Shown here piece by piece: positions 17,885 through 31,410 of a DNA stretch of 36,935 nt. The DNA is from Bacteroidales bacterium. GTDB taxonomy: Bacteria > Bacteroidota > Bacteroidia > Bacteroidales > UBA6680. A model generated the notes under the pieces. It made no database searches. It worked only from the letters and a program-made list of their open reading frames with translations, and had not been told where the DNA came from. Made by a program: the position numbers and the translations under genes. The stretch's first letter is position 1. Every line of letters starts with the position of its first letter. The stretch covers positions 1 to 36,935 of the forward strand of contig JAFGOQ010000222.1 of NCBI GenBank assembly GCA_016926405.1. Direction: 5' to 3'.

Positions 17885-17950
17885 AGAGCATAGCTTTATT
17901 GTTAATATAACAACAGCTTCACCAATACATTATCAATAATTTTTTGGTGA

Positions 17951-18232
17951 ACAATAGTTTGCAACACTTGATTAGCTATGAATTTTCGGAAAACATTAGT
18001 TTGCAATACTTGATTAACAAAGATTTTCTGGAAAACATTAGTTTGCAATACTTGATTAACAAAGAATTTCTGGAAAACATTAGTTTGCAATACTTGATTA
18101 GCTATAAATTTCCGGAAAACATTAGTTTGCAACACTTGATTAACAATAAATTTCTGGAAAACATTAGTTTGCAACACTTGATTGGCAATGAATTTCCGAA
18201 AAACATTAGTTTGCAACACTTGATTAGCTATA
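17951..18232. repeat. Tandem array of 42-bp units (six full copies plus a partial seventh)
   Basis: Unit starts 17951, 17993, 18035, 18077, 18119, 18161, 18203; consensus acattagtttgcaaYacttgattaRcNaNRaatttYYggaaa. Confidence 0.92.
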
Positions 18233-18234
18233 AA

Positions 18235-18268
18235 AAAAGCGGGCTTCACAAAATGTGAGCCCGCTTTT
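18235..18268 (-). terminator. Terminator hairpin downstream of hydC of hydrogenase 1, abutting the repeat array
   Basis: AAAAGCGGGC-TTCACA-AAA-TGTGA-GCCCGCTTTT; strong stem with T-tracts in both orientations. Confidence 0.75.
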
Positions 18269-18285
18269 ATATTTATTATCAACGA

Positions 18286-18774
18286 CTACAATCCGTCGTA
18301 CTCTTCAATAATTTTACGTACCTCGTCAGGCGACACACGACCGTAAGTTTTTTCTCCTACCATAACAACAGGAGCTAAACCACAAGCGCCAACACAACGC
18401 AAACAACTTAACGAGAATTTACCGTCTTGGGCTGTTTCACCAACTTCTAATTTAAGAACACGCTTAAACTCTTCTAATACTTTATCGGCACCACGCACGT
18501 AACATGCAGTACCAGTACAGATAGAAATAGGGAATTTACCTTTTGGTTTCATTGTAAAGAACGAATAAAATGTTACAACACCATAAACCTTTGCAACAGA
18601 AATATTCAATTCTTTAGCTACTACCTCTTGAATCTCGGCAGGAAGGTAACCAAAAATACTTTGAGCCTTATGAAGAACGTTAATTAACTCTCCCGGATCG
18701 TTATTAAACGATTTACATACATCTCTAAGAGTATCTAAATCCGTTTTCTTTAATTCTATAGTATATCCAGACAT
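18286..18774 (-). CDS. hydC: [FeFe]-hydrogenase gamma subunit, NuoE-like (hydrogenase 1)
   Basis: ISICTGTACYVRGAD...LSCLRCVGACGLAPVVMVGEKTYG; downstream of HydB and HydA. Confidence 0.9.
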   Translation of the reverse strand: MSGYTIELKKTDLDTLRDVCKSFNNDPGELINVLHKAQSIFGYLPAEIQEVVAKELNISVAKVYGVVTFYSFFTMKPKGKFPISICTGTACYVRGADKVLEEFKRVLKLEVGETAQDGKFSLSCLRCVGACGLAPVVMVGEKTYGRVSPDEVRKIIEEYDGL

Positions 18775-18808
18775 AATCTTTCTTTAATATTAGTAATACT
18801 CAATTAAA

Positions 18809-20590
18809 TTAATCCTCTTTTTCATGAATCACAGTCTGCTTACTAGCATAGTGAGTATGAAGAAGATGATGTGCTTTCTCGCTCATAGGAGTACCAAGGA
18901 ACTTTTCGTAAAGTTCTGCAATAGCAGGATTCTCGTGAGACTTACGGATAGCTTTTCCGTCGTCTTCGCGATAAAGAGCAGCAGCACGTTTTTTAAGGAT
19001 AGAAGAATCGCCATGGTGAAGAGGCTGACCACCACCACCAATACATCCACCAGGACAAGCCATGATTTCAATAGCGTGGAATTCAGACTTACCAGCTCTG
19101 ATATCTTCAAGTAATTTACGAGCATTACCCAAACCATGAGCAATACCAATATTTAATTCAAGTCCGTTAAAGTCAACTTTAGCAGCTCTGATACCCTCAA
19201 GACCACGTAATTGTTGGAATTCAACTTTCTCAAGTTTTTTCTTAGTGAAAACCTCGTAAGCAGTACGAGTAGCAGCTTCGATAACACCTCCAGTAACACC
19301 GAAGATAACAGAAGCACCTGTACTCTCGCCCATAGGAGAATCAAAATCTTCTTCTGGAAGAGTCTTGATATCCATGTTTGCTTGCTTAATAAGGTGAGCT
19401 AATTCGCGAGTAGTTAAAGCAAAGTCAACATCTGGGTTTCCGTCTACTTTAAACTCATCTCTTTCCGACTCGTATTTCTTAGCAACACAAGGCATAATTG
19501 AAACAACAACTAAATCCTCGCGCTTAACACCAATTTTGTCGGCAAAATATGTTTTTGCAATAGCACCAAACATCTGTTGCGGAGAACGAGCTGTTGATGG
19601 TATATCAATCATATCAGGGAATTGAGCTTCGAAGAAGTTAACCCAACCCGGACAACACGAAGTTAAAATAGGAAGTTTAACATTCTTATCGCCTTCAAGG
19701 TGTTTTGTAAGACGACCTAATAACTCAGTACCCTCTTCCATAATTGTAAGGTCGGCAGCAAAGTCAGTATCAAATACAAAATTAAAACCTAAACGACGAA
19801 GCGCAGCAGCCATCTGTCCAGTAACAAGGTTACCTGGTTCCATACCAAACTCTTCACCAAGAGCAGCACGAACAGCAGGAGCTGTTTGAACGATAACAGT
19901 TTTCGATGGATCGGCAAGAGCACGAATAACAGATGGAGTATGATCAACCTCTGTTAAAGCACCAGTAGGACAAACAGCCACACACTGTCCACAGTAAGTA
20001 CAAGTAGACTTCTGAAGATCCATTTCGAAAGCAGGAGCTACAACAGCTTCAAATCCACGATTAACAGCAAAAAGAGCACCTACAGTTTGTACATCGTTAC
20101 ACATTGTCTCGCATCTGCGACACATAACGCACTTATCCATATCGCGGATAATCGATGGTGAGTAGTCTTTCTGGTATGTCGACATCTCAGCAGTGTCTTG
20201 ATAAGGAATCTCGCGAACACCTAACTTAACAGCAAGGTCTTGAAGCTCGCAGTGACCCGACTTAGCACAAGATAAACACTCTTTTGGATGATCTGATAAT
20301 ATAAATTCTAAAACAGTACGACGAGCATTAATAACACGCATACTGCTAGTTCTTACAACCATTCCTTCGTCAACATTTGTTGAACACGATGGAGCAAGGT
20401 TTCTTCTGCCCTCAACTTCAACAACACAAATACGACAGCCACCTGGCTTATTCTCGATATTCATGCCATGAAGATCCATGTAACAAAGGACTGGTATATC
20501 TATTCCTAATTGTTTAGCCGCCTTATAAATAGTAGTACCTTTTTCTACTTCTACTTGTTGGCCATCTATAGTTAATTTTACTAAATTCAT
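18809..20590 (-). CDS. hydA: [FeFe]-hydrogenase catalytic subunit HydA (hydrogenase 1)
   Basis: H-cluster motifs TSCCPGW, MPCVAKKYE, EIMACPGGCIGGGGQP; N-terminal [2Fe-2S], HxxxCxxCxxxxxC [4Fe-4S] and 2x[4Fe-4S] domains. Confidence 0.95.
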   Translation of the reverse strand: MNLVKLTIDGQQVEVEKGTTIYKAAKQLGIDIPVLCYMDLHGMNIENKPGGCRICVVEVEGRRNLAPSCSTNVDEGMVVRTSSMRVINARRTVLEFILSDHPKECLSCAKSGHCELQDLAVKLGVREIPYQDTAEMSTYQKDYSPSIIRDMDKCVMCRRCETMCNDVQTVGALFAVNRGFEAVVAPAFEMDLQKSTCTYCGQCVAVCPTGALTEVDHTPSVIRALADPSKTVIVQTAPAVRAALGEEFGMEPGNLVTGQMAAALRRLGFNFVFDTDFAADLTIMEEGTELLGRLTKHLEGDKNVKLPILTSCCPGWVNFFEAQFPDMIDIPSTARSPQQMFGAIAKTYFADKIGVKREDLVVVSIMPCVAKKYESERDEFKVDGNPDVDFALTTRELAHLIKQANMDIKTLPEEDFDSPMGESTGASVIFGVTGGVIEAATRTAYEVFTKKKLEKVEFQQLRGLEGIRAAKVDFNGLELNIGIAHGLGNARKLLEDIRAGKSEFHAIEIMACPGGCIGGGGQPLHHGDSSILKKRAAALYREDDGKAIRKSHENPAIAELYEKFLGTPMSEKAHHLLHTHYASKQTVIHEKED

Positions 20591-20607
20591 TCTTGATAAC
20601 CCTCCAA

Positions 20608-22401
20608 TTATTTGATAAAAATTGCGTTAAACTTACACTTCTCGATACAAGCACCACACTTAATACATGTAGCAGTGTCGATAATATGAGCTTGTTTTCT
20701 CTCTCCCGAGATAGCACCAACAGGACAAACTCTAGCACAAGCAGTACAGCCAACACAGTTATCGGCCTCAATTACATATTGCATTAGATCTTTACAAGCG
20801 CCTGCAGGACACTTCTTATCTTCAACGTGAGCAAGATACTCGCTGTAGAAGTTTTTAATAGTTGAAAGAATAGGGTTTGGAGATGTTTGACCTAATCCAC
20901 ATAGCGATGTATCTTTAATTACATTACACATGTTAACTAATAAGTCAAGATCTTCTTTAGTACCGTTTCCTTTAGTAATTTTTCCAAGAATTTCGTGAAG
21001 ACGTTTGTTACCAATACGACATGGAGCACACTTACCACATGATTCTTCTACTGTAAATTCTAGGTAGAATTTAGCAACAGAAACCATACAGTCGTCCTCG
21101 TCCATAACAATCATACCTCCCGAACCCATCATAGATCCAGCAGCCATAAGAGTATCAAAGTCAATTGGTGTATCAAGGTGTTCTTCTGTTAAACAACCTC
21201 CCGAAGGACCACCTGTTTGAACAGCCTTAAATTTCTTACCATCTTTAATACCACCACCAATTTCGAAAATTACTTCGCGAAGAGTGATACCCATTGGAAC
21301 CTCGATAAGTCCAACATTGTTGATTTTACCAGCAAGAGCAAATACTTTTGTTCCTTTTGATTTCTCAGTACCAATGCTAGCAAACCACTCGGCTCCTTTA
21401 TTAATAATAACAGGAATATTAGCAAACGTCTCAACGTTGTTAACATTTGTTGGTTTTCCTTTATAACCCGACTCAGCAGGGAATGGAGGCTTAACAGTAG
21501 GCTCGCCACGCTCACCTTCCATAGAGTGAATAAGAGCAGTCTCTTCACCACAAACAAAAGCACCAGCACCGTAACGCATTTCGATATCAAAATCGAAACC
21601 TGTTCCGAAAATATCTTTACCAAGCATTCCGTATTCACGAGCTTGCTTAATAGCTGTTTTAAGTCTTTCGATTGCCAAAGGATACTCGGCACGAATATAA
21701 ATTAAACCAATAGATGCTTTTGTAGAGTAACCACAAATAGCCATTGCCTCAAGAACAGCATGTGGATCACCTTCAAGAATCGAACGATCCATAAAAGCTC
21801 CTGGGTCTCCCTCGTCGGCATTACAAACAACGTATTTCTGATCGGCATCGTTCTTAGCACAGAACTCCCACTTTAATCCAGTAGGGAATCCACCGCCCCC
21901 ACGACCGCGTAAACCCGACTTCTTAATTTCGTCGATTACTTGTCCTGGTGTTAACTCTGTCAAACATTTTCCAAGAGCCGAATAACCATCTCTTGCAATA
22001 TATTCTTCAATATTTTCTGGGTTAATAAAACCACAGTTACGTAAAGCTATACGAATTTGTTTTTTGTAAAAGCCCATGTGCTTAGAGTCACTAACATGCT
22101 CTTCTTTCTTAGGATCTTTGTACAATAAACGCTCAACTTTACGACCTTTAATGATATGCTCGTCGATAATTTCTTTAACATCATCAGGAGTAACCTGAGT
22201 GTAGAAAGTATTATCAGGCATAACTTTAACGATAGGTCCTTTTTCGCAGAAACCAAAACATCCTGTAGGAACAACTTGAACTTCGCCTGCAAGATTTTTT
22301 TCTTCTAACTCTTTTTTAAAATTTTCGATGATTGTTTCGCCAGCAGAAGCTCTACAACCAGTACCGGCACATACCAGTAAATGCATTTTATATTTTGCCA
22401 T
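20608..22401 (-). CDS. hydB: [FeFe]-hydrogenase beta subunit, full-length NuoF-like HydB (hydrogenase 1)
   Basis: N-terminal thioredoxin-like [2Fe-2S] domain, GLRGRGGGGFPTG FMN/NADH region, SCGKCAPCRIG, C-terminal CVGCTACARVCPVGAI...CIKCGACIEKC ferredoxin domain. Confidence 0.95.
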   Translation of the reverse strand: MAKYKMHLLVCAGTGCRASAGETIIENFKKELEEKNLAGEVQVVPTGCFGFCEKGPIVKVMPDNTFYTQVTPDDVKEIIDEHIIKGRKVERLLYKDPKKEEHVSDSKHMGFYKKQIRIALRNCGFINPENIEEYIARDGYSALGKCLTELTPGQVIDEIKKSGLRGRGGGGFPTGLKWEFCAKNDADQKYVVCNADEGDPGAFMDRSILEGDPHAVLEAMAICGYSTKASIGLIYIRAEYPLAIERLKTAIKQAREYGMLGKDIFGTGFDFDIEMRYGAGAFVCGEETALIHSMEGERGEPTVKPPFPAESGYKGKPTNVNNVETFANIPVIINKGAEWFASIGTEKSKGTKVFALAGKINNVGLIEVPMGITLREVIFEIGGGIKDGKKFKAVQTGGPSGGCLTEEHLDTPIDFDTLMAAGSMMGSGGMIVMDEDDCMVSVAKFYLEFTVEESCGKCAPCRIGNKRLHEILGKITKGNGTKEDLDLLVNMCNVIKDTSLCGLGQTSPNPILSTIKNFYSEYLAHVEDKKCPAGACKDLMQYVIEADNCVGCTACARVCPVGAISGERKQAHIIDTATCIKCGACIEKCKFNAIFIK

Positions 22402-22419
22402 CGGTAGATCCTCCCTTAA

Positions 22420-22812
22420 TTAGTCAATTGTTTCATAATTTTGCGGAATAATACCCTCTACTAATTCACCATTCTTGATGTACTTTTCGATGATTTCGTC
22501 CGCTTTTTTAATATCCACATATCCAAAAACTATTGGATCTTGACCAGGAAGTTTAACCTCTATAGTAGGCTCTGCATAGCAATAACCCATATCACCTGTT
22601 TGGGCAACTACTGCATCGATACTACGTTTTGGCAACTCTTCTGCAAAATAATTAAAAATCTCTTTGGCACCCGAAGCGATACCGCTGGTAGCCATACCAA
22701 CTTTAATTTGCACAATGCTTTCTGGGTTATCACCCTTCTCGCGCAAATCAATCTTTGACTTAAGTTCTCCTGAAAGCTTCTTTAAGTCGGCTAATGATTT
22801 AATTTTTGACAT
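22420..22812 (-). CDS. Thioredoxin-like ferredoxin-fold protein with degenerate [2Fe-2S] cysteines
   Basis: 130 aa; VGMATSGIASGAKEIFNYF...VVAQTGDMGYCYAEPTIEVKLPG, similar to TCGIAAGA...CIGMC pattern but with Cys replaced. Confidence 0.7.
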   Translation of the reverse strand: MSKIKSLADLKKLSGELKSKIDLREKGDNPESIVQIKVGMATSGIASGAKEIFNYFAEELPKRSIDAVVAQTGDMGYCYAEPTIEVKLPGQDPIVFGYVDIKKADEIIEKYIKNGELVEGIIPQNYETID

Positions 22813-22919: not shown

Positions 22920-23465
22920 TTACTTAATTTGTATTTCTTCTAAATTGGAGTTAATAAATTCAGTTAAAAAGCCATAGACTTCTGGTGTGTTTATCGAAAC
23001 ATCACCCAAAGCTTCCTTTATTTCGAGGGTTGTAAATTCAAATTCTGCACTATTTATTTTGTGCTTATATCTAAAATTTACATTTGGCGTTCCGGTAATC
23101 AACATAGCTAAAACACCAGATATATCGCCTAACTCGGGACGATCGATATTAGAATGCGAAAAATGAACTTCTACTTTTGTTCCTTTTCCTAATACCGACG
23201 AAATATTTAGCCATCCTCCTGTTTGTTCGGCATTCTGTTTAAATAGGGCTATTCCCATACCCACCTTTCGGGTGGTACGGGTAGTATAAAAAGGATCGGA
23301 AACTCTTTTTACAGTATCCTCGCTCATCCCCTTCCCGTTATCAATAATACAAATATCAAATGTATCGGAATCTAAATTCTCTACTACTTCAATTTCAACC
23401 AACGTAGCTTTAGCCGAAATTGAGTTATGAACAATATCAAGTATGTGAAGTGACAACTCCTTCAT
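22920..23465 (-). CDS. HATPase_c (GHKL) ATP-binding protein, hydrogenase-associated
   Basis: LHILDIVHNSISAKAT, CIIDNGKGMSEDTV, DPFYTTRTTRKVGMGIALFKQNAEQTGG; ATGA overlap with the PHP gene. Confidence 0.85.
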   Translation of the reverse strand: MKELSLHILDIVHNSISAKATLVEIEVVENLDSDTFDICIIDNGKGMSEDTVKRVSDPFYTTRTTRKVGMGIALFKQNAEQTGGWLNISSVLGKGTKVEVHFSHSNIDRPELGDISGVLAMLITGTPNVNFRYKHKINSAEFEFTTLEIKEALGDVSINTPEVYGFLTEFINSNLEEIQIK

Positions 23466-24202
23466 ATTTTAACAATTTTTCGACCATCAATTTTATTTAA
23501 GGCCATTCGAACTTCTTCAAAAGAAAGTTCCTTCATTTGTAACTCTGTAAATACTTTACCTATATCATCAACATAATGAGCATCTGAATTTCTAACAAAA
23601 GAAAAATCTTTTAAATATGAGTTTTCAACAATGAATTCAGAGAAATCGCAATGGGGCGATAACCCAAGTGCATCAAATTTTAATCCTTTAGGAACAAAAC
23701 CTAACTGACTAATAATGCTGTTTTTTGATTTGTCGATATGAGCAGGTATAAATATCCCATTTAACTGAGATACTTTTTCAGATATTTCGTCGATGCTTTT
23801 TCGTAATGCCGATGTTAGCAACAACTCTTCTTCATAAATAATATCTTCGTTTTTATCGATAACAACTTGGTATCCGAAAAACGAAGGATCGTTTAAAAAA
23901 CCAGGTAAATTTTCTTCAATAAAATCCTGAAATTCTATCAATTGATGATCTTTCTCGAAAAAAACTAAACAGTGAACCTCTTCCGATGTAGTAACCTCGG
24001 CACCACACAGAACCAAAATATCATCATTCTCTGCAAGTTCTTTTACCAAATAACACTGACGAACAGAGTTATGATCGGTAATACCTATAATATCGATATT
24101 TTGCGCCTTTGCCTTTGCAAGGATATTTTTAGGAGTCATATCCAAATCTCCACAAGGCGACAATAGTGTGTGAATATGTAAATCGGCCTTGTATAGATTC
24201 AT
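23462..24202 (-). CDS. PHP-domain metal-dependent phosphoesterase
   Basis: ADLHIHTLLSPCGDLDMTP, GITDHNSVRQC, GAEVTTSEEVHCLVFF, NSDAHYVDDIG. Confidence 0.9.
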   Translation of the reverse strand: MNLYKADLHIHTLLSPCGDLDMTPKNILAKAKAQNIDIIGITDHNSVRQCYLVKELAENDDILVLCGAEVTTSEEVHCLVFFEKDHQLIEFQDFIEENLPGFLNDPSFFGYQVVIDKNEDIIYEEELLLTSALRKSIDEISEKVSQLNGIFIPAHIDKSKNSIISQLGFVPKGLKFDALGLSPHCDFSEFIVENSYLKDFSFVRNSDAHYVDDIGKVFTELQMKELSFEEVRMALNKIDGRKIVKI

Positions 24203-24228
24203 TTTTTATTGATATTAATTCCTATATA

Positions 24229-24281
24229 AAAAAATTGCTCTCGCTGGTTAATGAGGTATTCAATAATCAGCGAGAGTTTTA
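24229..24281 (-). terminator. Rho-independent terminator between the secreted hypothetical and the PHP gene
   Basis: Minus strand CTCTCGCTG...CAGCGAGAG then CAATTTTTTT. Confidence 0.8.
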
Positions 24282-24295
24282 ATTCTCAAGATATG

Positions 24296-25069
24296 TTAGT
24301 TATAAACAATTTCTCTTTTAAATGTTACTCTATTTAGTCTTCGTTCCAACCAATTACCTTTATCATCAATTTTCACATAATCCCAACCTATTTTATTATT
24401 ATCTTCATTAACATCTGCAAATGAAGAAGATAAAATATCGAAAGAATCTGTATACTTAATGTTTTTCACTGAAAATACGTCAATAAAAAAACTTTCCAAT
24501 CTATGATTGTTATCTAGTTGCACATAATATTTACTAGAGCTTGGTCTCTTTTTGCCTTCACGTGTAACAAATAATTTGATATCGTACTTATTTTCAGCTT
24601 CTGAATAATTAAAATTATATTCAAAAGCCATACCTTGTTTTAGTCTAGTAATTGTTTTAATAGCGCCTTTTTTATCATACGAAAAATCCATTATCCGCTT
24701 GTCTGTAAGATTTATGTATGACAACAATTTACCTTTATAAAAGAAATCATACTTATAAACACGATTTCTTACAACAAAAGAAACGTTCAAAACCTCTCCC
24801 TTTTTGCCGTAAATAAACTTGCATACCCCATTATTTCCACCAACGTTAGAATTAACTACAACTTCCTTATAATTGGAGCAATCGGAACTAGGAAAAAAAT
24901 CTAGAATAGTTGATAGATTTCCATTCTTTGCAGACAATTCGTAATTCATAAAAAAGTCTATAATAAGACTTTTATTAATTCTCTTAATATCCTTTTTGCT
25001 ATTAGCCAAAATAGGCTGCAGTAAAGAAAATAAGCATAAAATAAAAATGGATTTTTTCAGTAATTTCAT
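24296..25069 (-). CDS. Secreted hypothetical protein
   Basis: Signal peptide MKLLKKSIFILCLFSLLQPILANS; beta-rich, ending DDKGNWLERRLNRVTFKREIVYN. Confidence 0.6.
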   Translation of the reverse strand: MKLLKKSIFILCLFSLLQPILANSKKDIKRINKSLIIDFFMNYELSAKNGNLSTILDFFPSSDCSNYKEVVVNSNVGGNNGVCKFIYGKKGEVLNVSFVVRNRVYKYDFFYKGKLLSYINLTDKRIMDFSYDKKGAIKTITRLKQGMAFEYNFNYSEAENKYDIKLFVTREGKKRPSSSKYYVQLDNNHRLESFFIDVFSVKNIKYTDSFDILSSSFADVNEDNNKIGWDYVKIDDKGNWLERRLNRVTFKREIVYN

Positions 25070-25113
25070 AATTGTTTTTTATTCACTTTGTTATTTGACT
25101 GTTTTATTTTAGA

Positions 25114-25452
25114 CTAATCAACAGTAATTGCATTATAAACTAATCCAGCTATTTCAAAAGCCGATAGTTCGGTACATAAAACTGGAATATTTTCTTCATT
25201 GCAATGGTCAATGGTATCGGGGGCAGCTTTAAAATTGCTAACCAAAATTATTGCCGACAACTCTTTAAGCGATGCTATTGCAGCAACATTCTTATGTGTC
25301 TGTAATGTAATCCAAATCTGGCCTGCTTTGCTATTTCCCATAACATCGCTAAGTAAATCGGACACATATCCACCCGAAATTTCGTTTTCAAGACCATTAT
25401 GACCTGCAACAACTTTCAGATTCAACTCTTTTACTAATTCAGAGACTCTCAT
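25114..25452 (-). CDS. DRTGG-like domain protein
   Basis: MRVSELVKELNLKVVAGHNGLENEISGGYVSDLLSDVMGNSKAGQIWITLQTHKNVAAIASLKELSAIILV. Confidence 0.8.
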   Translation of the reverse strand: MRVSELVKELNLKVVAGHNGLENEISGGYVSDLLSDVMGNSKAGQIWITLQTHKNVAAIASLKELSAIILVSNFKAAPDTIDHCNEENIPVLCTELSAFEIAGLVYNAITVD

Positions 25453-25475
25453 TTTTATACTATTAAAACCTGTTA

Positions 25476-26834
25476 TTACTTAGGATTTTTATTTAATCTA
25501 TTTTTTCCCCACACTCGTTCGATAATACGAATTGCATGTTCGGGACTTAAACGGTGATGCTTCTCCATTACACGTTGCATAAAAACGCAATGAGAAAGTG
25601 TTGCGTTATTTTGTGCAATATCTTCGGCCAAAGCTTTACAAGTGGGAGCTCCACAAGCGCCACAGTCGAAACCTGGCAGATAACTTGTTAGCTTACTCGC
25701 CTTTTTCATTTTTTCAAGTGCAACAGAAAGATTCTGATCGAGAATTATCGATCGAGGTTTAATCTCGTGTAACTTATTAAGCCCAAGAATCTCCTCTTTG
25801 CACGAAAACATATCGTCTTTGCGCTCTTGACGAGGCTCTATAGGATAGCTACTCATTCGCTTAGCTCGTTTATTAAGTCTTTCAATATTAAAGAATCTAT
25901 TCCCCGAAACTAAAATACCTCCAGCACAACTCTGATTACACGAACGAAGCTCAAGAAAATCAATATCGTGGTTCTCCTGATCTTCTATATGTTCAAGAAA
26001 CTCTATAACATTCGAAATACCATCGATAGAGAGATTACGTCCTTTAAAATGTCTTGCTTCGCCACCTGTTAAACTCCACAAAATACTCTCAGGCGAGAGT
26101 TTTCCCATATCCGAAGATGCTGTAGACTTAATTGTTTCGTTCGAAATTTTTCGATAAATCTTATCATACAGAAAATTCATATTAATAACCCCATCGATAT
26201 TCGATTTATCCTCGCCTTCGGGACTTTTTACAGCTGCTATTTTTGCTGCACATGGAGTAATATAAAATAGCCCTATCTCTTCTTCCAAAAAACCTTCCTC
26301 TAATAATTTCTTACGATAAAAAGCAGCAGTAATATCGGAAGGCGGATTCACTAAAATTAAATTGTCTAGTAACGATGGAAACCTAACCTGAATAAGCCTA
26401 ACAATTGCAGGGCAATATGTTGAAATATAAGGTTTCTCATGATTAGGAAACTCGCCATCTTTATAAGCATCAATAAGAACATCAACACCTTGTTCAACCT
26501 CAACAACATGAGTGAATCCAAGCTCGTAAAACGAGTTGTATATCTGCGATGTTTTTACTATCTCTGGAAACTGTCCTATAAGAATTGATGGTATAAGAGC
26601 CACCCTAGCTTTATAAGGCTGTATTGATTCTAGAGGATCGTGATGAACAAAAATAGCAGAAACAGGACATACTCTATAGCAATCACCACAATCGATACAT
26701 CTGTTCCCGTTAATATCAGCAACACCGTTCCAAACTCTAATAGCTTCGGTAGGACAAACACGCATACAGTGCGAACAACCGATACAAATATCGGGATCTA
26801 CTTTTATGGCATGATGGAAATGACTAAAATCCAT
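25476..26834 (-). CDS. [FeFe]-hydrogenase-like H-cluster domain protein with 2x[4Fe-4S] and C-terminal Fe-S domain (putative sensory, HydS-like)
   Basis: CIGCSHCMRVCPTEAI...CIDCGDCYRVCPVSAI; degenerate H-cluster motifs STYCPAIV, TPCAAKIAA, ELRSCNQSCAGG; CGACGAPTC-x16-C. Confidence 0.88.
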   Translation of the reverse strand: MDFSHFHHAIKVDPDICIGCSHCMRVCPTEAIRVWNGVADINGNRCIDCGDCYRVCPVSAIFVHHDPLESIQPYKARVALIPSILIGQFPEIVKTSQIYNSFYELGFTHVVEVEQGVDVLIDAYKDGEFPNHEKPYISTYCPAIVRLIQVRFPSLLDNLILVNPPSDITAAFYRKKLLEEGFLEEEIGLFYITPCAAKIAAVKSPEGEDKSNIDGVINMNFLYDKIYRKISNETIKSTASSDMGKLSPESILWSLTGGEARHFKGRNLSIDGISNVIEFLEHIEDQENHDIDFLELRSCNQSCAGGILVSGNRFFNIERLNKRAKRMSSYPIEPRQERKDDMFSCKEEILGLNKLHEIKPRSIILDQNLSVALEKMKKASKLTSYLPGFDCGACGAPTCKALAEDIAQNNATLSHCVFMQRVMEKHHRLSPEHAIRIIERVWGKNRLNKNPK

Positions 26835-26838
26835 ATAT

Positions 26839-27249
26839 CTAAAAATTAACTGTCATTGTAAGTGTAGTTCCCTCTCCAACTACCGACGAAAGATCTAATT
26901 CGTCGACATTCTTTTTAATATTAGGAAGCCCCATACCAGCACCAAAGCCCATCTCACGAACTTTTTGCGAGGCTGTAGAAAAACCTATCTCCATAGCCTT
27001 TTCTATATCTGGAATACCAGGACCACTATCTTCAAATTTCACTAAAATTCTATCTGTATCAATATCGGCGATAATTTCTCCACCATACGAGTGTGCTACA
27101 ATGTTCACTTCAGCCTCATACATAGCAACAACAATACGTTTTATAATTTTGGTATCGATATTTAATTGTTTAAGTATTTTTTTTATCTCACTCGATGCAG
27201 TTCCCGCATTAGTAAAATCGCCAGCTTCAACTTTAAAATCAAATTTCAT
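26839..27249 (-). CDS. RsbW-like anti-sigma / Ser-Thr kinase-type ATPase
   Basis: N-box YEAEVNIVAHSYGG, G1 DSGPGIPDIEKAM, G2 GFGAGMGLPNIKKNVD. Confidence 0.88.
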   Translation of the reverse strand: MKFDFKVEAGDFTNAGTASSEIKKILKQLNIDTKIIKRIVVAMYEAEVNIVAHSYGGEIIADIDTDRILVKFEDSGPGIPDIEKAMEIGFSTASQKVREMGFGAGMGLPNIKKNVDELDLSSVVGEGTTLTMTVNF

Positions 27250-27251
27250 AA

Positions 27252-27596
27252 TTAATAAACAGCTTTTAATCCTGCAGAAAATAATTTACCTATTGCCATA
27301 AACATCGACAAAGGCGATTGTAGAATAACCATACCATTTTCCTTGGCTACTTCTAACATATCGCTTGTAACAATTTTATTACGAACAAATAAAATACATT
27401 TAATATCAGACATCTCGGCTGTGCGAATACTCTGCAGATTAACAAGACCTGTAACCAAAAGGATGTCGTCTGTTTCAATAGTCAAAACATCGCTCATTAA
27501 GTCGGAGGCAAAACCTGCTTTTATTTCAAAATCTAAATTATCGTGCCCAATTTTTATTTCGGCACTAACACATTCAGCAATTTCTTTAATCGTCAT
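27252..27596 (-). CDS. DRTGG-like domain protein (paralog of 25114-25452)
   Basis: MTIKEIAECVSAEIKIGHDNLDFEIKAGFASDLMSDVLTIETDDILLVTGLVNLQSIRTAEMSDIKCILFV. Confidence 0.8.
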   Translation of the reverse strand: MTIKEIAECVSAEIKIGHDNLDFEIKAGFASDLMSDVLTIETDDILLVTGLVNLQSIRTAEMSDIKCILFVRNKIVTSDMLEVAKENGMVILQSPLSMFMAIGKLFSAGLKAVY

Positions 27597-27722: not shown

Positions 27723-27740
27723 CTGTTATTCAAATAACAA
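27723..27740. promoter_or_regulatory. Candidate Rex-like operator upstream of the DRTGG/RsbW/HydS-like operon
   Basis: CTGTTATTCAAATAACAA; 7-bp perfect arms TGTTATT/AATAACA; 11/14 fixed positions; about 127 bp upstream of the start at 27596. Confidence 0.45.
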
Positions 27741-27760: not shown

Positions 27761-27796
27761 AAAAAAACAGGCAACCATAGAAGTTGCCTGTTAAAA
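27761..27796 (-). terminator. Rho-independent terminator after HydA2
   Basis: Minus strand AACAGGCAAC-TTCTATG-GTTGCCTGTTTTTTT. Confidence 0.85.
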
Positions 27797-27811: not shown

Positions 27812-29602
27812 TTAATACCTGTTGCGTTTACGATAATGCGTATGCAATAGTTTATGAGATAAATGCCCAAGAGGTTCATCCAAGTAATCCCTATATAATG
27901 CAATTATTTCAGGATTGTCGTGCGACTTACGAATAGCCATTCCCATATCCTCTTTATAAATAGCTAAAGTTCGTTTTCTACGAATTTCGGCATTAGTTGG
28001 AATAGGCTGACCTCCTCCACCAATACATCCACCAGGACATGCCATAATCTCGATAAAATGATATGGCGACTCACCAGCAGCTATCTGATCCATTATAATT
28101 CGAGCATTCTTTAGACCATGAGCAATAGCAACCTTAAGCTCTACTCCTTCAAGGAAAGACCATTCAGGAAGACATCCTTCTATTTTTATAGATGCATCTT
28201 TAATACCCTCTTCACCACGAACAGCTAGAATATTAAGGTTTTTAAAAGGTACTTCTCTTCCGGTAACAACCTCGTATGCTGTACGAAGAGCAGCCTCCAT
28301 AACTCCTCCTGTTGCACCAAAAATAACACCAGCACCCGACGATTCGCCCATAATATTATCGTACTTAGAATCCTTGAGATCCATAAACGAAATACCTGCT
28401 TGCTTAATCATGTGGCCTAACTCGCGAGTTGTCAATCCGCAATCTACATCGCGATATTCACTATCATTCATCTCTGGACGATTAGCCTCGTACTTCTTGG
28501 CAGCACATGGCATAATAGCAACAGAAACAATATCCTCTGGCTTAACACCAATTTTTTCGGCATAGTATGTTTTTGTTAATGCACCAAACATCTGCTGTGG
28601 TGATTTACAAGTAGACAAATGTCCTAGATGATCGGGATACATATGTTCGATAAACTTAACCCAACCAGGAGAGCAAGAAGTAATCATTGGTAATTTAACT
28701 TCTTTATTACCATCCTTAACAACTTTTCTAAGTCGCTTAAGAAGTTCGTTACCCTCCTCTACAATTGTAAGGTCGGCAGAGAAATCGGTATCAAGAACAG
28801 AATCGATACCCATTTTTTTCATTGCTGTAACCATTTTACCTGTTACACGCTCGCCAACAGGATAGCCAAGCATTTCACCTAAAGCAACACGCACCGATGG
28901 AGCAGTGTTCATAACAACATGCTTTGTTGGATCGCCAATAGCATCCCAAATCTCATTAAAGTAACGACGTTCTGTTAAAGCACCAGTAGGACAGCGATTA
29001 ACACACTGACCACAGTTTACACAAATTACATCGTTTAAAGGCAGATCAAGAAAAGTAGAGATACCCATATCTTTTCCTTTATGAGCTACACTAATAGCAT
29101 TAACGCCTTGTAATTCGGCACAAGTACGAACACAACGTTGACAACGAATACATTTCCTATCGTCTTTCTCTATTGACCACGACGATTTATCTACTTTAAA
29201 GTTTGGCTTTAAAACACTTAAATATGTGTCGTTATCAATATTGTATTCCGAAGCAAGTTCTTGCAATTCGCAGTTAGTACTACGGTAACAAGTAGTACAT
29301 TGTGTACTATGCTCCGATATTAATAATCCTATAATATCTTTACGAGCCTTACGAACTTTTGCACTATTAGTATTAACTACCATTCCCGATTGAGCAGGGT
29401 ATGCACATGAAGCCTGAAGGGTACGCATTCCTTCAACCTCAACAACACAAACTCTACAGTTACCAGCTACACAAAGATCTTCGTGATAGCAAAGAGTAGG
29501 AATTTTTACATTAACTTTTTTTGCTGCATCTAAAATAGATTGTCCCTCTTGAACCTCTACGGCGATGCCATCTATGGTAAGTTTTATCTTTTTTTCCATC
29601 AT
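27812..29602 (-). CDS. hydA: [FeFe]-hydrogenase catalytic subunit HydA paralog (hydrogenase 2)
   Basis: TSCSPGW, MPCAAKKYE, EIMACPGGCIGGGGQP; same N-terminal Fe-S domain layout as HydA1. Confidence 0.93.
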   Translation of the reverse strand: MMEKKIKLTIDGIAVEVQEGQSILDAAKKVNVKIPTLCYHEDLCVAGNCRVCVVEVEGMRTLQASCAYPAQSGMVVNTNSAKVRKARKDIIGLLISEHSTQCTTCYRSTNCELQELASEYNIDNDTYLSVLKPNFKVDKSSWSIEKDDRKCIRCQRCVRTCAELQGVNAISVAHKGKDMGISTFLDLPLNDVICVNCGQCVNRCPTGALTERRYFNEIWDAIGDPTKHVVMNTAPSVRVALGEMLGYPVGERVTGKMVTAMKKMGIDSVLDTDFSADLTIVEEGNELLKRLRKVVKDGNKEVKLPMITSCSPGWVKFIEHMYPDHLGHLSTCKSPQQMFGALTKTYYAEKIGVKPEDIVSVAIMPCAAKKYEANRPEMNDSEYRDVDCGLTTRELGHMIKQAGISFMDLKDSKYDNIMGESSGAGVIFGATGGVMEAALRTAYEVVTGREVPFKNLNILAVRGEEGIKDASIKIEGCLPEWSFLEGVELKVAIAHGLKNARIIMDQIAAGESPYHFIEIMACPGGCIGGGGQPIPTNAEIRRKRTLAIYKEDMGMAIRKSHDNPEIIALYRDYLDEPLGHLSHKLLHTHYRKRNRY

Positions 29603-29624: not shown

Positions 29625-30788
29625 TTAATAAATCATCTCCTCACGGAAATTATGAACTATTGAGTAGAAAGAGTTAGCTACCGACTGCCCCAAACCACAT
29701 TTTGAAGTTGCTTTCATTGTCTCGGTAAGACTTAGCAAATCGTCAAGATATTCAGAACTCTTTTCGCCACTCTTAACAGCTTTAATCCCTTTTATTAGTT
29801 GCTGACAACCAACTCTACAAGGAGTACACTGTCCACACGATTCTTCTTCGAAGAAATCTAAATAGTTAAACAAAACATTATACATAGATCGAGAACTATT
29901 AAAAATCATCATCGAGCCTCCCGTAGGAACACCTTCGAATCCAATAATAGTTTCGGCAAACTTTTTACGAGGAACGCAAAATCCCGAAGCACCACCAACC
30001 TGAACAGCCTTAGTATCACCATCGCCAAAATCTTCTACAAAATCAGCTAACGACATACCTAATTCAAGCTCGTAAATACCAGCTTTTGGAGTATCGCCAG
30101 AAATTGAGAATACTTTAGATCCTCTTGAGTCGAATGTTCCCAGGTCTTTAAATTTAGCGGAACCCATATAGCAAATCATAAAGGCGTATACAAGAGTCTC
30201 AACGTTATTAATAACTGTAGGTTTACCCATGTATCCACTCTTTGTTGGATATGGAGGCTTGTTACGTGGTTCGCCACGATGTCCTTCCATACTTTGGAAT
30301 AAGGCACTCTCCTCGCCACATACGTAGGCACCGCTACCCATAAATATTTTAATACGGAAATCAAAATTCAATGCATCTAGTTCGGCATGAAATTTCTCTA
30401 ACTCCTCTTCTAATTTTGGACGAAGATAGTTGTACTCGCCCCTTAAATATAAGAAACCCTCTTTTGCATTAATCACTTTTGCTACAACAGCCATTCCTCC
30501 AAAAACACGTTGCGGAACTCGAGTAAGAATTTCGCGATCTTTGAATGTTCCTGGCTCACCTTCATCTGCATTACAAATAACATATTTAACAGGATCGGGT
30601 TCATCGGCTGTATATTTCCATTTCATTCCTGTAGGAAAACCAGCACCACCGCGACCTCTCAAACCAGATTCTAATATCTCGTTTAAGATTTGACTATTAT
30701 CTTTCTTAAAAGTCTCCTTAAGAACCTTCGAAAGAATGGCCTCTTCAATAAAAATTAAATCTACTCGTTTTAATTGCTTATCATTCAT
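29625..30788 (-). CDS. NuoF/HydB-like subunit, short form lacking both terminal Fe-S domains (hydrogenase 2)
   Basis: 387 aa; GLRGRGGAGFPTGMKW, CNADEGEPGTFKDR, EESCGQCTPCRVGCQQL; ends without a ferredoxin domain. Confidence 0.92.
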   Translation of the reverse strand: MNDKQLKRVDLIFIEEAILSKVLKETFKKDNSQILNEILESGLRGRGGAGFPTGMKWKYTADEPDPVKYVICNADEGEPGTFKDREILTRVPQRVFGGMAVVAKVINAKEGFLYLRGEYNYLRPKLEEELEKFHAELDALNFDFRIKIFMGSGAYVCGEESALFQSMEGHRGEPRNKPPYPTKSGYMGKPTVINNVETLVYAFMICYMGSAKFKDLGTFDSRGSKVFSISGDTPKAGIYELELGMSLADFVEDFGDGDTKAVQVGGASGFCVPRKKFAETIIGFEGVPTGGSMMIFNSSRSMYNVLFNYLDFFEEESCGQCTPCRVGCQQLIKGIKAVKSGEKSSEYLDDLLSLTETMKATSKCGLGQSVANSFYSIVHNFREEMIY

Positions 30789-30808: not shown

Positions 30809-31285
30809 TTACTTACGAATATATTCGGCCAAAATTTCTCTGGCTTTATCAGGTGTTAATTCTGTGTAAGGTGTGCTATTTATTAACATAACAGGCCCCT
30901 TATGACACCACCCTAAGCAGTTTGTTGTCAACAACGAGAACTTCTTATCCTGTGTTGTTTCGCCTACCTTAATTTTAAGAGTATCTTCAATAGCCTTAAC
31001 AATCTGCTTCTTACCATGCATATCGCAAGTTATTGTCTTACACACTCTAATAACATTTTCGCCACGAGGAACAGTGTCTAAAAACGAATAAAAAGATGCT
31101 GTTCCATAAACATCGGCTGCCGAAACATCCAACTGTTTAGCTACTTCAATCATTGCTACATCAGAAAGGTATCGTTCTTTTTCAACAATACCTTGCAAGA
31201 TCGGCAATAAGCTCTCTCTGTTTCTACCATGCTTATCGGCAAGGTAGTTTACGTACTCTTCTAAATTCATCATTGATTTTGGCAT
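30809..31285 (-). CDS. NuoE/HydC-like subunit (hydrogenase 2)
   Basis: VCKTITCDMHGKKQI...LTTNCLGWCHKGPVMLINSTPY. Confidence 0.9.
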   Translation of the reverse strand: MPKSMMNLEEYVNYLADKHGRNRESLLPILQGIVEKERYLSDVAMIEVAKQLDVSAADVYGTASFYSFLDTVPRGENVIRVCKTITCDMHGKKQIVKAIEDTLKIKVGETTQDKKFSLLTTNCLGWCHKGPVMLINSTPYTELTPDKAREILAEYIRK

Positions 31286-31392: not shown

Positions 31393-31410
31393 TTGTTATC
31401 TAATTAACAA
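31393..31410. promoter_or_regulatory. Candidate Rex-like operator upstream of the hydrogenase 2 operon
   Basis: TTGTTATCTAATTAACAA; 13/14 fixed positions match TTGTTAA-N4-TTAACAA, perfect outer arms CATTGTTA/TAACAATG; about 108 bp upstream of the start at 31285. Confidence 0.6.

Follow-up and report, generated by a model that had tools for sequence, protein, structure and literature searches.

A conserved six-gene set with a putative sensory [FeFe]-hydrogenase next to hydrogenase genes in Bacteroidales

Six genes that lie beside [FeFe]-hydrogenase genes in a Bacteroidales bacterium, encoding DRTGG1, an RsbW-like ATPase, HydS, DRTGG2, a PHP-family protein and HATP2, are a co-inherited and conserved set. 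They were studied in a stretch of 36,935 nucleotides (contig JAFGOQ010000222.1, assembly GCA_016926405.1), here called the window. We give a probability of about 0.5 to the idea that the set is a control cassette with H2 as its input, acting on Hyd/Fdh-BC enzymes of the NAD/ferredoxin-linked (bifurcating) type, where we infer the sensing, the direction of the signal, the phosphorylation and the target. The basis for this is gene content, conservation, gene fusions, variants that have no HydS, intact cluster, ATP and metal motifs, and Rex-type sites.

The ORF list of the window has seven ORFs between two hydABC sets, all on the minus strand and with short or overlapping junctions. The order begins with DRTGG1 (27252..27596), a small stand-alone DRTGG-like protein with the motif FASDLMSDVL, followed by the RsbW/SpoIIAB-like GHKL ATPase (26839..27249; HATPase_c_2, 45.8 bits) and HydS (25476..26834; Fe_hyd_lg_C, 83 bits, with FeS PF04060 and Fer4). 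Next are DRTGG2, a second stand-alone DRTGG protein (25114..25452; PF07085, 29.5 bits with a cut-off of 25.2), a secreted hypothetical protein without a Pfam or NCBIfam match (24296..25069), the PHP-family metallophosphoesterase (23462..24202; PF02811, 35.9 bits) and HATP2, a GHKL ATPase whose C-terminal domain is conserved (22920..23465; HATPase_c, 55.7 bits). Coordinates, strand and Pfam matches thus bear out the seven-gene run described in an earlier note on this DNA, and recurrence and co-occurrence in other genomes rule out chance as the source of the arrangement. All of its members are conserved elsewhere except the secreted ORF, which is absent from all other loci compared, including two genomes of the same genus. 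This ORF is a local insertion outside the conserved module. A search for RNA families and tRNAs gave none.

Upstream of the module, also on the minus strand, is a hydrogenase set with HydC2 (30809-31285), HydB2 (29625-30788), which is short at 387 aa, and HydA2 (27812-29602), which is of the group A6 type and passes NF040763. The L1 motif of HydA2, TSCSPGW, was considered as an anomaly and dismissed because the identical motif is present in the solved HydA1 of A. woodii (7q4v). An intrinsic terminator with an 11-pair stem and a T run (27766..27792, minus strand) follows hydA2 and divides it from the module. Downstream, a 2Fe-2S ferredoxin-like protein, HydB1, HydA1 and HydC1 (18286..22812, minus strand) make up a group A [FeFe]-hydrogenase. 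This set is the usual downstream neighbour of the module in relatives and is probably on the same transcript.

The window holds only two predicted Rex-type palindromes. One, TTGTTATTTGAATAACAG at 27723..27740, has one mismatch and lies upstream of DRTGG1; the other, at 31393..31410 upstream of hydC2, is a perfect match. Perfect matches numbered 0 in 10 shuffles of the window. Among the loci compared, a predicted site was present upstream of DRTGG1 at 34 of 105 versus 1.2 in shuffles, and upstream of hydC2 at 14 of 21 versus 0.35, with strong enrichment limited to these two positions. A Rex gene was noticed only in one relative (G034, locus L142).

Conservation across genomes indicates that the genes belong together. 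DRTGG1, RsbW and HydS directly follow one another in 102 of the 106 loci compared from relatives, and the run of HydS, DRTGG2, PHP and HATP2 was seen in 61 of 91 loci. DRTGG proteins were present in all 128 Bacteroidales genomes with HydS compared with 9 of 264 without it (Fisher p = 2e-93, not corrected for phylogeny). The same gene set occurs in a Clostridia record, where HydS identity is 33%, and parts of it are present in a Desulfoluna MAG. These results strongly bear out the earlier prediction that these families co-occur with hydrogenases elsewhere. By contrast, action on the neighbouring hydrogenase, also suggested before, does not hold as a general rule because the module is also found away from hydABC. 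HydB1 is not within reach in eight six-gene loci and in Parabacteroides distasonis the module stands alone, which means that the module may act on something other than an adjacent hydrogenase.

By its sequence, HydS is a putative sensory [FeFe]-hydrogenase of the group D (M2e) type, without a PAS domain. Its catalytic motifs had been described as degenerate, but the H-cluster cysteines (C141, C195, C299 and C303) are all intact and the differences are limited to proton-path and second-sphere residues. In an alignment of 60 HydS sequences these four cysteines are invariant, as are the eight N-terminal cysteines and the C-terminal Cx2Cx4Cx16C motif (C391, C394, C399 and C416), and the lysine of TPCxxK is kept in at least 90%. 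The CpI residue C299 is replaced in HydS by Y140, CpI M353 by T193 and CpI M497 by R297; the position of Y140 is Phe in most relatives. Loss of the residue at CpI C299 and a change of M353 to Ser or Thr are marks of group D (PMC8163306), and HydS shows both. The group D proton path in TamHydS consists of S/T249, E252, D265 and E289 (PMC10407848). These residues are matched, by motif and spacing alone, by T256, E259, D271 and E295 of HydS, the last three of which are invariant in alignment A8. Pfam detected no PAS domain in HydS, and the AF2 model (pLDDT 89) has an [FeFe]-hydrogenase fold. HydS forms a clade separate from groups A, B and C, and in this tree, which does not include TmHydS, a long branch with 100/100 support splits it from the group C proteins of R. 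albus and Monoglobus. Having no fused PAS and, in the tree without TmHydS, no clade with group C, HydS was not placed among the group C sensory hydrogenases. The divergent HydS of genome G298 keeps the four cysteines and has lost K198.

Loci with altered gene content give some indication of what HydS does in the module. HydS is missing and the other five genes are kept in G034, G143, G146 and G090, and in G090 the catalytic subunit is a formate dehydrogenase alpha (TIGR01591, 902 bits) in place of HydA. HydS therefore looks like an exchangeable input. In G003, HydS is the sole PF02906 protein and HydF and HydG are retained. HydS there probably still undergoes maturation, and the module has persisted beyond the loss of HydA. 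No HydG was detected in the HydS-containing genomes G005, G074, G107, G191, G258, G277, G331 and G378. The genomes G005, G045, G052, G074 and G097, which also have HydS, lack both HydG and HydF. This makes an H-cluster-based sensor uncertain in lineages without a detected HydG. HydA with canonical motifs persists in G045 and G074, the genomes without detected maturases that were checked, so the missing maturases may have gone undetected. In some lineages at least, HydS might lack the [2Fe] subcluster and would then sense redox by its [4Fe-4S] clusters only. The persistence of HydS in genomes without detected HydG, or without HydG and HydF, fits this, as does the G298 protein with its four cysteines and no K198. 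However, the HydA proteins of G045 and G074, the retention of HydF and HydG in G003 and the conserved TPCxxK lysine argue against it, and we consider it very improbable.

DRTGG1 alone had no Pfam match, and its family profile matched that of DRTGG2 (hhalign 99.6%, E 1e-24). In the fused form it scores 24.2 bits as DRTGG, slightly below the cut-off of 25.2. This fused form, where DRTGG1 and RsbW are a single ORF, occurs in two genomes (loci L055 and L156) and suggests that the two act as one unit. A 457-aa DRTGG1 "fusion" at L123 was left uncounted; it has no family evidence and is most likely a frame that extends upstream of the usual start. The best NCBIfam match of the RsbW-like protein is SpoIIAB (TIGR01925), at 59.7 bits. 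The N-box residues E45 and N49 are invariant and the GFGAGMGL motif is invariant or nearly so. The protein is a candidate kinase for serine/threonine, or a candidate switch that works by binding a partner. With SpoIIAB as its best family match, it could also be an anti-sigma factor for a sigma factor encoded in trans. In such a partner-switching control of transcription, DRTGG1 would serve as the anti-anti-sigma factor replacing STAS proteins, PHP would be the phosphatase, and HydS would act upstream as the trigger. The complementary half of this kind of system, SpoIIE PP2C phosphatases, is paired with group C sensory hydrogenases both in the same genome and in Ruminococcus albus. On the other hand, the SpoIIAB score is far under the family cut-off of 135, and Pfam and NCBIfam found no STAS antagonist, sigma factor, response regulator or transcription factor among the module genes, which leaves the module without a conventional output. 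Transcriptional partner switching therefore seems improbable to us.

DRTGG2, which is conserved beside PHP and HATP2, had no match in a sequence search of the PDB. In PHP, residues H9, H11, D43, H44, E69, H77, H155, D207 and H209 are invariant, among them the metal-binding set of H9, H11, H44, E69, H155, D207 and H209, and the nearest solved relatives by sequence are EndoQ. The AF2 model of HATP2 (pLDDT 92.6) gave full-length Foldseek matches to MutL/PMS2/TopoVIB (TMq 0.55-0.57, rmsd 4-8 Å) compared with a TMq of about 0.45 to histidine kinases. The predicted structure is thus no further from MutL-type ATPases, in which the GHKL domain is joined to a transducer-like second domain, than from kinases. 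This resemblance would suit HydS and its partners being an accessory electron-transfer and assembly unit of a HydABC-type complex, with HydS as a redox valve and the GHKL ATPases as chaperones or gates, HATP2 being MutL-like. Gene order provides further examples: a Clostridia hyd operon contains HATP2 (HydC-HATP2-Fd-HydB-HydA), and in G142 HydC-HydB comes immediately after HydS, where a NuoG-like subunit takes the place of HydA; the G071 cluster is similar. By contrast, HydS is absent from 32 of 55 genomes with HydG, which disfavours a role of the module in maturation as a general need, and the DRTGG1-RsbW-HydS trio occurs without a nearby hydABC and in G003 without any HydA. The N-box glutamate of RsbW is also retained, as for a kinase, and we judge the accessory unit to be unlikely. 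Of the earlier proposal that a sensor controls a kinase/phosphatase-like switch, the sensor and switch find support in the DRTGG1-RsbW fusions, the modules without HydS and G003, but HATP2 is at least as MutL-like as it is kinase-like.

In the control cassette that we propose, HydS, a putative slow group D [FeFe] protein, would equilibrate with H2, and the DRTGG1-RsbW unit would receive its redox or conformational state. A partner, most likely DRTGG2 or the HydB/HydC machinery, would then be bound or phosphorylated by the RsbW-like protein. DRTGG2, PHP and HATP2 would be the second arm of the switch, where PHP might remove a nucleotide signal or reverse the mark, HATP2 could be a second switch or an ATP-driven clamp on the target enzyme, and the DRTGG domains possibly report adenylate state. 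Transcription of the operon would be driven from the Rex-type (NADH/NAD+) promoter region, so that expression would track redox and activity would track H2. A broader and doubtful extension is that a DRTGG-RsbW core with an exchangeable sensor (HydS with an H2 enzyme, none with formate dehydrogenase) is a general Rex-controlled cassette for NAD/ferredoxin bifurcating enzymes. If true, partner switching in response to H2 would here do without a PAS, histidine kinase or STAS domain.

The six-gene set recurs in many gut and sediment bacteria beside hydrogen-producing enzymes, and HydS probably senses H2. On the question of how group D [FeFe] proteins relay a signal (Land et al.), conservation of the module points to specific likely partners, DRTGG1 and the RsbW-like protein, which adjoin HydS in nearly every locus, fuse to each other in two genomes and survive HydS loss. 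The signalling question thus becomes testable with small soluble proteins. These Bacteroidales inhabit the rumen, the gut and sediments, and the module would bear on how H2 and formate are turned over there. In the literature searched, mostly outside subscription journals, we found no description of an RsbW/PHP/DRTGG hydrogenase module, and DRTGG together with hydrogenase in one paper only, a transposon study of D. vulgaris with a single mention of each.

Several known systems share features with this module. The [NiFe] sensor HoxBC-HoxJ is also a hydrogenase-like H2 sensor that feeds a GHKL protein, but it has another metal centre and a true histidine kinase with a response regulator. The Bfu family of electron-bifurcating enzymes similarly combines HydB/HydC with a partner that can be exchanged between HydA, formate dehydrogenase and Nfn; the part of that account used here (PMC9304861) does not describe the six-gene regulatory cassette. 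SpoIIAB/RsbW kinases have the same GHKL fold and catalytic N-box Glu/Asn, whereas the RsbW-like protein here is under the curated cut-off, the module has no STAS or sigma factor and DRTGG1 is fused or adjacent. Group C HydS-PAS proteins with SpoIIE/PP2C (Ruminococcus albus and hfs of T. saccharolyticum, the latter with a predicted Rex-type site upstream; PMC5886521) likewise have an altered proton path, catalytic hydrogenases nearby and a Ser/Thr switch enzyme. They use PAS and a PP2C phosphatase, whereas the module here has no PAS, an RsbW-like ATPase, DRTGG, PHP and HATP2, and its HydS is in a separate clade. TamHydS, the group D (M2e) protein of Thermoanaerobacter mathranii for which a sensory role was proposed (PMC8163306, PMC10407848, PMC13104023), and HydS both lack PAS, have two N-terminal 4Fe-4S motifs and the C-terminal Cx2Cx4Cx16C, have lost the proton-path Cys, have a hydroxyl residue at M353 and, by motif and spacing, share the group D Glu/Asp/Thr path residues. 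Each of them also lies near a bifurcating hydrogenase and near an ATPase that resembles histidine kinases. They differ at the C299 position (Phe/Tyr here, Ala in TamHydS) and at M497 (Arg here, Leu in TamHydS), and the published flanks of TamHydS are a histidine-kinase-like ATPase and an AraC regulator, whereas HydS here is part of a defined six-gene cassette found mostly in Bacteroidales.

The window contig belongs to a 2.9 Mb assembly that its relatives place in the Bacteroidales. On its minus strand, transcription order runs from HydC2-HydB2-HydA2 through DRTGG1, the RsbW-like ATPase, HydS, and DRTGG2 to a secreted ORF, PHP, HATP2 (the second GHKL ATPase), a 2Fe-2S ferredoxin-like protein, HydB1, HydA1, and HydC1. 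An earlier note had described a seven-gene H2/redox module at 22920-27596, and its gene list and coordinates are correct. The secreted ORF had no counterpart in any other locus compared. Because a strong terminator (27792-27766, minus strand) lies directly 3' of hydA2, the module has its own transcript start, and this transcript probably extends into the second hydrogenase. HydB2 (29625-30788, 387 aa) lacks both the 2Fe-2S domain found at the N-terminus of HydB1 (597 aa) and the ferredoxin domain at its C-terminus, which gives the two hydrogenase sets different architectures. HydA2 (27812-29602) has the L1 motif TSCSPGW, where Ser replaces the usual cluster-ligand Cys, in 24/24 aligned HydA2 sequences and likewise in the solved A. 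woodii HydA1. Immediately after hydC1 is an ORF of 126 aa (17902-18282) with no family match.

The module is conserved across genomes. The trio DRTGG1-RsbW-HydS is unbroken in 102 of the 106 loci whose upstream sequence is long enough to judge; of the four exceptions, one is a fusion (locus L055) and one a rearrangement (L105). HydS-DRTGG2-PHP-HATP2 are consecutive in 61/91 loci; in L085, L087, L093, L096, and L101 the second trio, DRTGG2-PHP-HATP2, is placed in front, and in others it lies elsewhere. Of 392 Bacteroidales genomes, 128 encode HydS and 137 match the DRTGG1/2 profile. All 128 genomes with HydS had DRTGG versus 9/264 of those without it (Fisher 2e-93, shared ancestry ignored). PHP and HATP2 track the same genomes (32/99 and 33/99). 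The set was found again in Subdoligranulum variabile (Clostridia; HydS identity 33%) and part of it in a Desulfoluna MAG.

In HydS, all four cysteines of the H-cluster are present, as are eight ferredoxin cysteines near the N-terminus and a C-terminal Cx2Cx4Cx16C cluster motif; every one of these positions is invariant in 60 relatives. Domain searches found no PAS domain. Residues T256, E259, D271, and E295 match the proton path reported in the group D protein TamHydS of Thermoanaerobacter mathranii (PMC10407848), the AlphaFold model is a confident [FeFe]-hydrogenase fold (pLDDT 89), and in a tree a long branch with 100/100 support sets HydS and a Clostridia relative apart from groups A, B, and C. 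Together, these data place HydS in group D (M2e type) and outside group C. The second sphere is altered (CpI C299 to Phe/Tyr, M353 to Thr, M497 to Arg). The catalytic motifs had been called degenerate; the term is better taken to mean an altered proton path than a dead cluster. A very divergent HydS in genome G298 (L154, 10170-11507) has an H-domain past Pfam recognition; it retains the four H-cluster cysteines and has Glu for the conserved Lys.

The RsbW-like protein retains the N-box Glu/Asn of SpoIIAB-type kinases and scores well under the SpoIIAB family cut-off; family searches found no STAS or sigma partner among the module genes. DRTGG1 has no Pfam match, but its profile matches that of DRTGG2. 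PHP retains its metal ligands. Because the HATP2 structure matches MutL/PMS2/TopoVIB over its full length (TMq 0.55-0.57) and histidine kinases over shorter stretches, HATP2 could work as an ATP-driven clamp instead of a kinase.

Natural variants provide information about how the parts relate. DRTGG1 and RsbW form a single ORF in genomes G071 and G142. HydS is lost, with the remaining five module genes kept in order, in G034, G143, G146, and G090, and in G090 formate dehydrogenase alpha occupies the HydA slot (TIGR01591, 902 bits). Group A HydA accompanies HydS in 68/69 near-complete HydS-containing genomes; G003 is the only case where HydS is the sole [FeFe] protein, and HydF and HydG are nonetheless kept. 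Parabacteroides distasonis has the six module genes on their own. In addition, 32 of 55 HydG-containing genomes have no HydS. Taken together, these observations suggest that HydS acts as an input that can be exchanged, that DRTGG1 and RsbW work as a single unit, and that the module does not serve in maturation.

The two loci with the DRTGG1-RsbW fusion, L055 and L156, have a HydC-HydB-NuoG-like subunit-NfnA-NfnB cluster, where the NuoG-like subunit takes the HydA position, along with a divergent HydS. In L143 (G090:C98, 11538-16950), Ferredoxin-HydB1-HydC1 directly follows the HydS-less module and a HydA-type N-terminus is fused to the formate dehydrogenase alpha subunit.

Among near-complete Bacteroidales genomes that encode both HydS and a group A HydA, HydG and HydF were both undetected in G005, G045, G052, G074, and G097, and HydG was undetected in G107, G191, G258, G277, G331, and G378. 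No HydF was found where tested among genomes without HydG. This absence runs by lineage (all three sampled f105 family genomes and both genus g23 genomes with HydS), and HydA cluster motifs are canonical in G045 and G074, the two checked. The maturase genes may have escaped detection, or these lineages may build the H-cluster by a different route.

We searched for the Rex-type palindrome TTGT[TG]A-N6-T[AC]ACAA with at most one mismatch, a pattern that agrees with the published T. saccharolyticum Rex consensus (PMC5886521). The window has two sites, a perfect one upstream of hydC2 and one upstream of DRTGG1, placed in the two promoter regions. Two such sites are not unusual in shuffled windows; a perfect site occurred in 0/10. 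Across loci, a site lies upstream of DRTGG1 in 34/105 (1.2 in shuffles) and upstream of hydC2 in 14/21 (0.35 in shuffles), and almost never ahead of inner module genes. In G034 a Rex gene is located between hydA2 and DRTGG1.

The best-supported reading is that the module is an H2-input switch on NAD/ferredoxin-linked Hyd/Fdh-BC enzymes. HydS would come to equilibrium with H2 and its state would be passed to DRTGG1-RsbW, which would act on a partner; PHP and HATP2 would be a reset or effector arm, and the output would be directed at these enzymes. Phosphorylation, the H2 response, and the target are what we infer. A CBS domain fused to an RsbW-like protein on a short contig (L155, G349:C366, 1055-1711), together with the DRTGG domains, suggests possible adenylate sensing, given what is generally known of these domain families. 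This contig may be contamination; G349 has no PF02906 and no HydG.

Group D HydS and its closeness to a histidine-kinase-like ATPase are already published (PMC8163306), and kinases, phosphatases, and PAS sensors have been noted upstream of C. thermocellum hydrogenases (PMC3492117). In the literature searched we found no description of the defined cassette, the DRTGG1-RsbW fusions, the HydS-less variants, or the Rex sites. For the group C HydS of R. albus, a PAS-to-kinase route has been proposed, as cited in PMC5707799. In contrast to the proposed HydS to DRTGG1-RsbW route, group C sensors pair with SpoIIE phosphatases. The window's own genome (G000) has two group C-like [FeFe] proteins with weak PAS domains, and in both cases a SpoIIE-type PP2C phosphatase comes next (C72, L161, 9191-12142; C84, L162, 6598-9649). 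From such pairs, it seems that group C and group D H2 sensors both draw on halves of the partner-switching toolkit.
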